Shown one piece after another: positions 2,985 to 5,749 of a DNA stretch of 6,581 nucleotides; positions within the stretch are counted from its first letter, which is position 1, and every line of letters starts with the position of its first letter. Position numbers and translations under genes: made by a program. Under the pieces are notes generated by a model. The model was not told where the DNA came from and did not search any database. It worked only from the letters and a program-made list of their open reading frames with translations. Location of the stretch: the NCBI GenBank assembly GCA_003232015.1, contig QIKU01000046.1, forward strand, positions 1 through 6,581. The letters run 5' to 3'. The stretch is from Gammaproteobacteria bacterium. GTDB lineage: Bacteria > Pseudomonadota > Gammaproteobacteria > UBA6429.

Positions 2985-2992
2985 GAGTTTTT

Positions 2993-3088
2993 AGTGACGT
3001 ATATTGAATGTGGTGTTGCAAGATCGGCTCCCGTTTTCCATTGCCTCGCAGTAACGCATATTGAATTTGGCATTGCAAGATGAGCCCC
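2993..3088. repeat. Two-copy imperfect tandem repeat upstream of the methyltransferase
   Basis: A roughly 39-base unit occurs at 2993-3032 and again at 3050-3088, a period of 57 bases, with about one difference in five positions. The shared core reads ATATTGAATNTGG followed by TTGCAAGAT and a G/C-rich tail (CGGCTCCC or GAGCCCC). The outer ends AGTGACGT and AGTAACGC are also related. The copies fill most of the gap between the membrane-protein cassette and the methyltransferase start. They could be a duplicated recombination-site arm, a regulatory site pair for the methyltransferase operon, or an interspersed genomic repeat. Confidence 0.7.
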
Positions 3089-3178
3089 TTTTATTTCTGT
3101 TCAATTATTCCTGGTAAGTTGTTACGTTATCGGTAGCCCGCAAAGCTTTGGCGATGACTATTAAATGAGTTGTTATGC
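3049..3178 (-). other. Candidate attC site of the membrane-protein cassette
   Basis: One base past the membrane-protein stop codon the minus strand reads GCATAACAACTCATTT, a good R''-L'' arm (box at 3172-3178). The only matching far end is GCGTTACTG, with the box at 3049-3055, giving about 130 bases. A 9-base inverted repeat, TAACGCATA at 3052-3060 and TATGCGTTA at 3174-3182, joins the two ends. The R'' end is convincing; the R' end is degenerate and overlaps the 57-bp-period repeat, so the exact limit is uncertain. Confidence 0.42.
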
Positions 3179-3179
3179 G

Positions 3180-3509
3180 TTAACCCTCTATGAACCATAC
3201 AAAAGCCGTTATAACAATTGCTATATTTAAAATAAACACAGCCCACGATTCTTTTGCTGACTTATTTACTGGATCTCGATCCGGATTAAATCCGGTAACC
3301 ACCATGTATAGAACGCCAATTATAACGCAAGCCGTGAACCAAAGCCTCCCGCCAACACCTACTATAAACTCTGGATTTCCTGTTAACTTGGAAAGAAAAA
3401 TAATTAATACAAAACCGCCTAGCCAAGTAGAAATAAGTAATTTCTTTAATATGGATTCTTTCCCTTGTAGGAGTTTTGATAATTTTACATATATATTTCC
3501 AGTTGCCAT
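3180..3509 (-). CDS. Small three-helix membrane protein, unrecognised
   Basis: This 109-residue protein has three clear hydrophobic helices: about 23-45 (LLISTWLGGFVLIIFLSKL), 56-74 (LWFTACVIIGVLYMVVTGF) and 88-107 (WAVFILNIAIVITAFVWFI). A charged loop, NPDRDPVNKSAKES, joins helices two and three. The positive residues before helix one (KLLQGKESILKK) suggest a cytoplasmic N-terminus. I recognise no family and assign no function beyond an inner-membrane location. The ATG lies 16 bases after a GTTATTC core box, with only a weak AAGA as ribosome binding site, and the stop codon abuts an R''-type box. This is the usual tight packing of an integron cassette gene. An antisense open frame over the same bases is less convincing because its product lacks this regular helix pattern. 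Confidence 0.72.
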   Translation of the reverse strand: MATGNIYVKLSKLLQGKESILKKLLISTWLGGFVLIIFLSKLTGNPEFIVGVGGRLWFTACVIIGVLYMVVTGFNPDRDPVNKSAKESWAVFILNIAIVITAFVWFIEG

Positions 3510-3525
3510 GTTCTTATTTTATTGC

Positions 3526-3674
3526 GAATAACGCCTAGCTCGCCGGTAAAATGCGAGCGTGGCAAGTATTTTTCCGATGCAGCTACTTGTGTACGCCCAG
3601 CATGTGAGTTATTACTCTGACACCAAATACAACCCCAAATACAATACAAGCGGTTTTGACCAGCTTGTTAGAGC
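3526..3674 (-). other. attC recombination site of the DUF4468-like cassette
   Basis: The minus strand after the stop codon reads GCTCTAACAAGCTGGTCAAA (box GTTAGAGC on plus at 3667-3674). It ends with TTTTACCGGCGAGCTAGGCG followed by GTTATTC (box at 3526-3532). The arms pair imperfectly (AGCT, GGT and AAAA elements in mirrored order). The interior has a strong imperfect palindrome, plus-strand GCGTGGCAAGTA against TACTTGTGTACGC, and a smaller CTCGC/GCGAG pair. Its roughly 149 bases make it a long but acceptable attC. A 10-base direct repeat, CCAAATACAA at 3623-3632 and 3635-3644, lies inside. Confidence 0.6.
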
Positions 3675-3684
3675 GCATTATCCT

Positions 3685-4224
3685 TTACCATTTTGCCGAA
3701 TTCTTGGCTTTTTTCAGATAACCAGTGAGTTCGTTTGAAAACTCGGCTAACATGGACTTGGCCATTGGTTCTATACGATATCTATTAGCGCCCTCTAGCC
3801 TGCCAAATGCTGATACGACCCCGTTACCATCTATGGCCTCGATATTCGACATTTGCAGCCGATACCTTCCATCCTTTGCATCAAGCACTAGACGACCTTT
3901 TATACCCTTAAATGCGTCAAAGAAACCCGCTTTTGAATTTATAAGGACGACATTTCCAACTATCTTTCCCAATTCAGAGTCTTTCAATTGGATCACACTT
4001 TTGGCTGATACGAATTTCTCAGCAATAAAGGCGGATGAGTAAGAAATAATTTCAGATTTGTTTAGATCGACATTCTCGATTCTTTCAAACACGTATGGGC
4101 TGTCAGATGGTTTCTCCTCGCTTTTTGCTTCTTCTGCGTAAACAGTCGGCACAAAGGCAGCAAGAGCTAAGATAGCAAGGAGTGACCAAGCGGAAAATTG
4201 GAACGGCTTTTTAACTAAGAACAT
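3685..4224 (-). CDS. Exported DUF4468-like protein
   Basis: This 179-residue protein has a classical signal peptide. KK lies near the N-terminus, a hydrophobic core spans about 11-27 (SAWSLLAILALAAFVP), and a likely signal peptidase I site follows VYA at residue 30. No lipobox cysteine is present, so a periplasmic product is expected. Residues about 55-130 (KSEIISYSSAFIAEKFVSA, then VIQLKDSELGKIVGNVVL) match the pattern I know for DUF4468, a TBP-like-fold domain of unknown function: a helix with FIAENF-like sequence, then VIQ-x-KD-x-E-x-GKI-x-G. The charged stretch 31-42 is a linker. The start is fixed by a strong GGAGG six bases upstream of the ATG, unusual among the genes here. The gene begins 23 bases after a core box and ends ten bases before an R'' box. 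I am moderately sure of the domain; the function is unknown. Confidence 0.82.
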   Translation of the reverse strand: MFLVKKPFQFSAWSLLAILALAAFVPTVYAEEAKSEEKPSDSPYVFERIENVDLNKSEIISYSSAFIAEKFVSAKSVIQLKDSELGKIVGNVVLINSKAGFFDAFKGIKGRLVLDAKDGRYRLQMSNIEAIDGNGVVSAFGRLEGANRYRIEPMAKSMLAEFSNELTGYLKKAKNSAKW

Positions 4225-4230
4225 GTGTTT

Positions 4231-4235
4231 CCTCC
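4231..4235 (-). promoter_or_regulatory. Strong Shine-Dalgarno site of the DUF4468-like gene
   Basis: The minus strand reads ATGGAGGAAACACATG, so GGAGG sits six bases before the start codon at 4224. It lies inside the cassette, between the core box and the start, so the cassette carries its own translation signal even if it relies on an outside promoter. The other cassette genes lack a comparable site. Confidence 0.75.
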
Positions 4236-4247
4236 ATTTTTACTGCA

Positions 4248-4334
4248 TTCTAATGCTCATTTAACTGCTAATATTTTAGCGAAGCGAGTAGCATGAAATT
4301 GCTATGCTTAGAATTATGCAAATGCTTGTTAGAT
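4248..4334 (-). other. attC recombination site of the HEPN-protein cassette
   Basis: Five bases past the HEPN gene stop the minus strand reads ATCTAACAAGCATTT, a textbook RYYYAAC box and L'' arm (box at 4328-4334). The far end reads AAATGAGCATTAGAAT, whose AAATG and TTAGA mirror the first arm. The R' box (4248-4254) is ATTAGAA rather than GTTRRRY, so the G that borders the crossover is an A. The 87-base site contains inner inverted pairs, for example TAGCA with TGCTA around a six-base loop, and the common attC-like stretch ACTCGCTTCGCT. The R'' box is a perfect reverse complement of the GTTAGAT box at 5051-5057 that opens the same cassette. Confidence 0.62.
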
Positions 4335-4339
4335 TGTTT

Positions 4340-5044
4340 TTATGTACATTCTGCTCGCTTTTTGTATTCACGATATAAATTAGTTTCTTTCTTTTCATAT
4401 ATAAAACAATTAAAGTTTTCGTCAAAAAGTCTTACCCACTCTCTTACAAATTCAAACGGATACCAGCTATCCATTAATGTTAGAACTTTATAGTTTGCTG
4501 GTGAACCTTTATGAACAATATCATTCCTTATTGTATAAAGTAGTTGTAAAGCTGCCCAACAATTTTTAGCAAAAAAGTTGCAGCCCTCAGAGGTATGGAA
4601 ATCGATTTCAAAAGAAGGAAGATGAATGTTAAAAAATTTTTTATACAAGTTCTTAAAGTCGTCTAAACTTCTAAAATTAATTTTTTTAAAAGTTTCTTCT
4701 ATTATTTGATCATTGGAACTCGACACAAGATATCTATAGTATTCTCTAAATTTCAATATCAAATACGATTCTAGCGCAGTATGAGAAGCTACAATTATTT
4801 GCTGGCCGATTTCTGTAAAATGGCCTTCCTTTTCAAGCATTTCAAATTCTTTTTTTTTATATAAACTACCAATTAGATTAAGGCCAGATATTTTATTATT
4901 GTCCATTATTGATGCAATCGTTTCTAAAGGAGGCTCCTCGTTTCGTATTTTCGCCATTACATGCAATGCATATACATCTGCTGCGCGCACTATTCCAAGT
5001 ACACCTTGTTCCAATTCGCGAAATTTCTCTATTGCTTTAGTCAT
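4340..5044 (-). CDS. HEPN-motif protein of an integron cassette, possible RNase
   Basis: This 234-residue, largely helical and AT-rich protein is not one I can name. The notable feature is R173-N-D-I-V-H178 in LLYTIRNDIVHKGSP, which fits the R-x4-6-H catalytic motif of HEPN ribonucleases, including the polar residue right after the arginine. An earlier helix, ASHTALESYLILKFREYYRYL (86-106), resembles the first HEPN helix, with the conserved helix-E-x-x-L pattern. The HEPN region therefore probably covers about 80-215. Residues 1-80 may be a separate helical or DNA-binding-like segment (FEMLEKEGHFTEIGQQI resembles a winged-helix end). HEPN proteins act as toxins, phage-defence RNases or non-catalytic partners; no partner gene is adjacent. 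There is no Shine-Dalgarno sequence: the ATG is six bases from the GTTAGAT core box, so translation is probably weak or leaderless-like. The motif is short, so HEPN assignment is likely but not proven. Confidence 0.75.
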   Translation of the reverse strand: MTKAIEKFRELEQGVLGIVRAADVYALHVMAKIRNEEPPLETIASIMDNNKISGLNLIGSLYKKKEFEMLEKEGHFTEIGQQIIVASHTALESYLILKFREYYRYLVSSSNDQIIEETFKKINFRSLDDFKNLYKKFFNIHLPSFEIDFHTSEGCNFFAKNCWAALQLLYTIRNDIVHKGSPANYKVLTLMDSWYPFEFVREWVRLFDENFNCFIYEKKETNLYREYKKRAECT

Positions 5045-5050
5045 ATTTAA

Positions 5051-5178
5051 ATCTAACTAGTATATAGGTCTCCGAACTGCAGAATATCACACTTGAAGTA
5101 CCGGTTTGTTCGAATAAATATATTTCATTATCAGGATCTTATACTCTATAAACTCCCTAATTTTAAGGGGATACTAGT
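5051..5178 (-). other. Opening core box of the array and possible decayed attC or attI
   Basis: The minus strand reads GTTAGAT at 5057-5051, a GTTRRRY box that opens the HEPN cassette. An 8-base perfect inverted repeat, ACTAGTAT at 5056-5063 and ATACTAGT at 5171-5178, could be the two arms of a site of about 130 bases. An inner CCC/GGG pair flanks TAATTTTAA nearby. The far box would be GCAGACT, which lacks the AAC of a functional R'' box. The element may be a decayed attC, the end of an attI, or only a chance inverted repeat next to a true core box. Confidence 0.4.
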
Positions 5179-5310: not shown

Positions 5311-5667
5311 ATGGTCTTTGAAATAAAAAATAAACTGGTTAGTCCTCGGCAGTTAAGCCAGTCGGTGTTGCAGATCACCGAGATGCTGGGAATGTATCAT
5401 GCCGAGCTTGCCCGGGTATTGCACTTGCAGTGTGCTGATATCGGTGCGTTGGCCAATGGTAAAATGGTTTTGGATGAACACAGTGAGAGCTGGTCGCATG
5501 CGTTGGCCTTTTTGGCGTTTTATCAGGCCCTGTATTCGTATTTTGAAGGTGATGGGGTGGCGATGTGCAACTGGTTGCGGCGGGATCATGTTGAGTTTGG
5601 TAAGACGCCGTTGTTGGTGATGGTGGATGATCTGCGCATTGGTGATGTTGCTCGATTGTTAGATTAA
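5311..5667 (+). CDS. Orphan Xre/MbcA/ParS-like (DUF2384-type) protein
   Basis: This 118-residue protein resembles the antitoxin half of RES-Xre/ParS-type toxin-antitoxin pairs. Residues 12-52 (PRQLSQSVLQITEMLGMYHAE, then LARVLHLQCADIGALANGK) look like a helix-turn-helix. The C-terminal 88-118 (NWLRRDHVEFGKTPLLVMV, then DLRIGDVARLLD) follows the toxin-binding pattern W-L-x(n)-G-x-T-P-L-x-L-(helix)-G-x-x-x-V-x-x-L-L. The residues between them (ALAFLAFYQALYSYFEGD) match the linker helices. No RES-domain toxin lies downstream, where only repeats and a convergent LysR gene follow, nor upstream, so it would be an orphan. No strong ribosome binding site precedes the ATG, and the start could be slightly different. 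Its moderate GC content fits the LysR side of the window rather than the AT-rich array. The alternative is a stand-alone DNA-binding protein without toxin pairing. Confidence 0.75.
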   Translation: MVFEIKNKLVSPRQLSQSVLQITEMLGMYHAELARVLHLQCADIGALANGKMVLDEHSESWSHALAFLAFYQALYSYFEGDGVAMCNWLRRDHVEFGKTPLLVMVDDLRIGDVARLLD

Positions 5668-5675
5668 GTCACAGC

Positions 5676-5749
5676 AAGATCCTTCGCTTTGCTCAGGATG
5701 ACAAAATTAAGAAGATTAAGATCCTTCGCTTTGTTCAGGATGACAAAAT
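5676..5749. repeat. Two near-identical 32-bp repeats between convergent genes
   Basis: Copies at 5676-5707 and 5718-5749 differ at one base (gctcagg versus gttcagg) and are separated by ten bases. Each contains an imperfect hairpin, ATCCT...AGGAT with an inner GC pair around TTT, followed by GACAAAAT. They sit between the stop codons of the Xre/ParS-like gene and the LysR gene, with both genes pointing at them. Similar AGATCCTTCGC...CAGGATGAC elements are, to my recollection, scattered in many bacterial genomes. They might aid bidirectional transcription termination, but no T-run follows the hairpins, so I do not call a terminator. Confidence 0.85.

Follow-up and report, generated by a model that had tools for sequence, protein, structure and literature searches.

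The attI site normally adjoins intI, and cassette arrays without an integrase represent a form of gene storage known from many bacteria. Cassette insertion outside integrons, at attG sites, was reportedly found by Loot et al. in 2024. The core-site consensus RYYYAAC/GTTRRRY and the point of crossover have been described (PMC12901181). Arrays of at least two attC sites without a proximal integrase are usually called CALINs (PMC12444791; PMC8618304). Routes by which such arrays may arise are described in PMC8618304 and PMC12901181, and mobilisation of CALIN cassettes in trans is possible (PMC9668308). HEPN genes, whose products are defined by an Rx4-6H motif, were described in integron cassettes in 2013 (PMC3710099). 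HEPN proteins in integron cassettes, CALINs, defence in connection with integrons and attG sites are all already in print. The locus described here adds to the known cassette cargo a HEPN family with an invariant Rx4H motif and no sequence match in the PDB. Of most interest is the spread of this HEPN gene, with relatives that adjoin attC-type sequences in two further phyla; the array itself is ordinary.

The DNA analysed (the window, 6581 bases) is a whole contig of an uncultured gammaproteobacterium. Its region 3049-5057 very probably represents a short array of integron-type cassettes that has no detectable integrase (Table 1). It was classed as a CALIN because it has two attC sites, no integrase in 6.6 kb and non-cassette genes on both flanks. 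The array is real but ordinary in kind, with two to three cassettes that are partly decayed. It resembles CALINs, as these are characterized in PMC8618304 and PMC12444791, in having at least two attC sites, functionally unrelated genes and no proximal intI, but differs from those descriptions in being very short, with partly decayed sites and an uncertain third site. The order of transcription on the minus strand is HEPN-like, DUF4468, membrane protein, methyltransferase, CRP-like, YdcZ-type transporter and GNAT. The three cassettes have G+C contents of 31, 42 and 36 %, compared with 45 and 49 % for the flanking DNA.

Table 1 Features of the cassette array and its flanks (coordinates in the window)
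Feature	Position	Strand	Remarks
LysR gene	beyond the Xre/MbcA/ParS_C-like gene	minus	
Xre/MbcA/ParS_C-like gene	5311-5667	plus	weak match
Opening core box GTTAGAT, HEPN cassette	5051..5057	minus	exact GTTRRRY; 7/7 against reverse complement of own closing box
Putative HEPN-fold protein gene (cassette 1), 234 aa	4340..5044	minus	R173/H178 (Rx4H)
attC A	4248..4334	minus	R'' ATCTAAC, degenerate R' ATTAGAA; R1 E 0.017, R2 E 0.039
DUF4468 protein gene (cassette 2), 179 aa	3685..4224	minus	hydrophobic N-terminal segment; PF14730
attC B	3526..3673	minus	R'' CTCTAAC, R' GTTATTC; R2 E 0.047
Small membrane protein gene (cassette 3), 109 aa	3180..3509	minus	three hydrophobic stretches (hydropathy)
Candidate attC C	3049..3178	minus	R'' GCATAAC, R' GTTACTG; R2 2.1 bits, E 8.7
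Direct repeat, 39 nt, 79 % identity	2993-3031 and 3050-3088 (2993..3088), 57 bases apart	minus	right half of candidate attC C twice
Methyltransferase gene	2984-2331	minus	
CRP-like gene	2316-1678	minus	
YdcZ-type transporter gene	1510-1043	minus	
GNAT gene	1062-268	minus	

Integrases above the TIGR02249 cut-off were found in 71 of 398 Pseudomonadota genomes, and the integrase-adjoining stretch was taken from 20. A motif scanner reported attC-like sites in 16 of these 20 loci, mostly on one strand, and none at the stated threshold in the other four. A model combining a weight matrix with pairing was built from 217 of the attC-like sites reported by the scanner. Its best score in the window, 35.45 at 3533-3673 on the minus strand, was reached in none of 200 shuffles, and both the left half (14.7 bits) and the right half (12.5 bits) of site B score higher than any other on the minus strand. 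The score at 4248-4334 (16.03) ranked fourth on this strand, with 177 of 200 shuffles reaching 16, and the left half of candidate site C ranked third (11.1 bits).

No consensus structure emerged when 51 mixed attC sites were aligned. The training sites of two home-made covariance models were attC sites adjoining integrases of other genomes: for R1, 28 long-form sites, hand-picked from 65, and for R2, 24 of 25 longer sites, L067:9099-9235 being left out as seemingly spurious. The two training sets share 3 sites and contain none from the window; that of R2 includes sites from genomes with HEPN relatives (L023, L024, L026). The E-values of both models are rough, because calibration was short. R1, run with filters off, placed minus 3526-3596 (E 6.3e-4, covering the 3' part of site B only) and minus 4248-4334 (E 0.017) at the top of 13 matches, the next following at E 3.3. 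Likewise, the top two of 21 R2 matches were 4248-4334 (E 0.039) and 3526-3673 (E 0.047), both on the minus strand, with the next at E 0.87, and the ends of site A were identical in both models. The initial annotation had named attC sites at these two places; the match at 4248-4334 and the one ending at 3526 thus head both lists, on the predicted strand. As a positive control, five integron loci (92 kb) were searched with R1 and gave 16 sites at E ≤1; in the negative control, five other loci totalling 67 kb, no match was better than E 0.25. Candidate site C was absent among the 13 R1 matches, and R2 listed it with exactly the expected ends as 20th of 21. It is weakly supported, at noise level, and is either a decayed attC or no attC at all. 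Above chance are sites A and B by the covariance models, and only 3533-3673 by the weight matrix. An attC thus lies on the gene-sense strand directly 3' of the HEPN and DUF4468 genes, and weakly so for the membrane protein gene, which upholds the reading as an integron-type array for two consecutive genes and leaves the third weak. Sequence likeness among the three sites was in no case above that of shuffles.

Each of the three genes was said to be bracketed by RYYYAAC/GTTRRRY-type boxes, the opening box matching the reverse complement of its own closing box. All three genes are indeed boxed, and the exact consensus is found in the HEPN pair only (opening GTTAGAT, closing ATCTAAC). The DUF4468 gene has ATTAGAA, in which the G of the crossover is absent, and CTCTAAC; the membrane protein gene has GTTATTC and GCATAAC, and the next opening box is GTTACTG. 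The distances from opening box to start are 6, 23 and 16 bases according to the coordinates. The TAACAA-type closing boxes begin 5, 11 and 1 bases past the stops of the HEPN, DUF4468 and membrane protein genes. Opening and own closing boxes agree at 7/7 positions in the HEPN cassette, 5/7 in the DUF4468 cassette and 6/7 in the membrane protein cassette. The match of each box to its own partner was overstated, because foreign boxes fit comparably: the DUF4468 opening box agrees no less with the closing box of the HEPN cassette (5/7), and that of the HEPN cassette matches the DUF4468 closing box at 6/7. The minus strand contains 7 NNNTAACAA sites, one beside each of the three cassette stops and a fourth 3 bases past the stop of the CRP-like gene. 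When 7 NNNTAACAA sites were placed at random, all three stops were hit in a fraction of 1.5e-5 of 200,000 trials, a test that was chosen post hoc.

The imperfect palindromes annotated after each stop are weak features. In bottom-strand folding, 18/200 shuffles folded at least as well as 3520-3680, 47/200 as 4242-4340 and 156/200 as 3043-3188; for 2985-3188 the count was 147/200. Folding thus surpasses that of shuffles slightly or not at all. These poor hairpins, the deviating boxes and the E-values of 0.0006 to 0.05, which come from a short calibration, would be in keeping with chance boxes in ordinary intergenic sequence with no integron history. This explanation is nevertheless highly improbable, given that two covariance models and the box test concur on position, strand and ends.

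Ten integrase queries (one of which, L048, was mis-framed) gave no match better than E 0.28 in the 6.6-kb window, as annotated, whereas at least six of them recovered the full-length integrase of control locus L058 (e.g. E 9.6e-93). The array could be part of a complete integron, with the integrase just outside the contig, which is only 6.6 kb long, and integrases above the family cut-off are as common in Pseudomonadota as noted above. However, no intI lies next to the array within the window, while attI normally adjoins intI. Upstream of the first core box there are ~250 bases without a detectable integrase, followed by the Xre/MbcA/ParS_C-like and LysR genes, and four other genes lie downstream of the array. 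A complete integron is therefore regarded as improbable. No attC was found before the opening box of the HEPN cassette. This box possibly represents the insertion point, as a remnant of attI or an attG-like site. With its single GTT box ahead of cassette 1 and its non-cassette flanks, the locus is reminiscent of the attG insertions outside integrons reported in PMC12901181 and may have originated in this way.

In the CALIN reading each cassette would consist of one gene followed by its attC. An integron integrase, encoded elsewhere or since lost, would have inserted the cassettes via the folded bottom strand of attC, the crossover falling at G/TT in its R' box. The sites appear to be partly decayed: site A has ATT for GTT, site B has a long spacer (that before R' exceeds the usual length), the hairpins are poor and half of candidate site C is duplicated, a duplication that may be read as decay. 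The array is therefore probably a relic, or mobile only rarely and in trans. As to its origin, a relic, a rearranged fragment and insertion at a site other than attI are all conceivable.

A fourth, two-gene cassette consisting of the methyltransferase and CRP-like genes (2984-1678) was considered. These genes are 14 bases apart, a CATTAAC box (1674) begins 3 bases past the stop of the CRP-like gene, and GTTACTG (3049-3055) agrees with its reverse complement at 6/7 positions. Against this, no attC at 1572-1674 of the minus strand appears among the R1 or R2 matches; for 1572-1638 R2 gives E 0.92 on the plus strand and E 4.9 on the minus strand. With the box present and the attC models giving no support, this cassette is quite improbable and was not accepted.

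Residues R173 and H178 (Rx4H) of the HEPN protein are invariant in all 30 aligned sequences, and the conserved Rx4-6H motif that characterizes the HEPN superfamily is thus present. The protein scores below the gathering cut-off of Pfam family PF18735, RiboL-PSP-HEPN (17.9 vs 28.4 bits), and two of its distant homologues carry the RiboL-PSP-HEPN label. It resembles the integron cassette protein 3jrt, as presented in PMC3710099, in being an Rx4-6H HEPN protein as cassette cargo in Gammaproteobacteria. The profile of its family, however, has no sequence match to any PDB chain at E ≤1, 3jrt included, so that the window protein probably belongs to a different HEPN family. Judging from the motif and the putative fold, its product is probably an RNase by which growth would be slowed during stress or infection, and on the same basis only a role of the cassette in defence is plausible. 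Among five proteins submitted to PADLOC the methyltransferase gave the only match (mad2, E 7.3e-5), and the three cassette proteins gave none. The DUF4468 protein scores above the gathering cut-off of PF14730 (30.5 bits vs 22.6), and the fold nearest to it is 4e6f, itself a DUF4468 protein. No member of this family was found in 398 Pseudomonadota genomes at E 1e-15 or, at E 1e-5, in the 7 genomes with a HEPN relative, both searches being without a positive control. Homologues in metagenome contigs number 61 for the HEPN protein and 53 for the DUF4468 protein. The 109-aa membrane protein has no Pfam family.

A single scan of genome contigs for relatives of the HEPN protein gave 8 loci; the context analysis covered 7 of them, all but L008 (33 % over residues 17-111). 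Integrases above the cut-off occur in 4 of the 7 genomes. Two of the 7 relatives adjoin an attC-type sequence (L001 and L003), by differing lines of evidence. The relative in L001, from a Scalindua MAG, has 64 % identity to the window protein. The sequence 3' of its gene is attC-like, with 73 % identity over 111 columns to an attC that adjoins the integrase on a different contig of this genome (score 102, shuffle maximum 42); its first box has CTAATA instead of TAAC. The relative in L003, from a Bacteroidetes MAG, has 43 % identity. GCCTAAC begins 16 bases past its stop, in a stretch that recurs downstream with 89 % identity over 174 bases; the matching GTTAGGC lies ~310 bases on, beyond the usual attC length. 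A GCATAAC/GTTATG pair (9915, 9948) is found upstream of the HEPN gene, and the scanner has matches at 6443-6602 and 11588-11696. L004 has a weak R2 match 154 bases past the stop (2549-2633, E 0.39), which was not counted. Nothing attC-like was found beside the HEPN genes of L002, L005, L006 and L007 (R2 was run on L002 and L007 only). In the loci of HEPN relatives that were searched, no R1 match was better than E 0.43 and no R2 match better than E 0.1; the sensitivity of the models across phyla is poor, because they are weak in loci where other evidence places attC-type sequences. Viewed by themselves, 5466-5582 of L001 is a lone attC-like sequence after a HEPN gene, and 9900-11940 of L003 is an array-like stretch with its 174-base repeats (89 %) after cassette-like genes.

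The HEPN coding DNA of the window and L001 is 69 % identical (482/700), while the likeness of their attC sequences is not above that of shuffles. This combination may reflect either re-packaging or plain divergence. A relationship of the attC sites of the window to those of the HEPN relatives was dropped, the similarity not exceeding that of shuffles. It is a tentative and rather unlikely proposal that a solitary HEPN RNase gene travels as a cassette across phyla (a gammaproteobacterium, a Scalindua planctomycete and a Bacteroidetes member) with an unrelated attC each time, having been packaged more than once and acting, with no antitoxin linked to it, as a single-gene module for growth arrest or against phages. 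By what route a gene gains its attC is, to our knowledge, an open question, for which a single gene family associated with unrelated attC types would represent a tractable case.

Searches of plasmids with the window (near mode), the HEPN protein and the DUF4468 protein gave no match, and viral contigs contained no relative of the GNAT, HEPN or DUF4468 proteins. Rfam and tRNA scans of the window yielded no matches and zero tRNAs. The short minus-strand reading frame MKLLDALNWRYAVKRFSDEIVMVI at 1512-1586 is reminiscent of a nitroreductase N-terminus; a nitroreductase remnant was dropped as a candidate, neither Pfam nor NCBIfam giving a match. The LysR protein has a match in 1 of 398 Pseudomonadota genomes at E 1e-90 (54 % identity). 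Those of the best LysR matches that carry a name stem from Gammaproteobacteria or a hydrothermal vent metagenome, and the host is accordingly taken to be an uncultured, probably marine gammaproteobacterium. The protein encoded at 5311-5667 matches the Xre/MbcA/ParS antitoxin C-terminal domain below the threshold (17.9 vs 24.5 bits) and has no match in 398 Pseudomonadota genomes at E 1e-12, and no toxin partner for it was recognised among the genes of the 6.6-kb window. Located 3' of this plus-strand gene is a 32-bp direct repeat (5676-5749), of which the two copies are 97 % identical and 42 bases apart.
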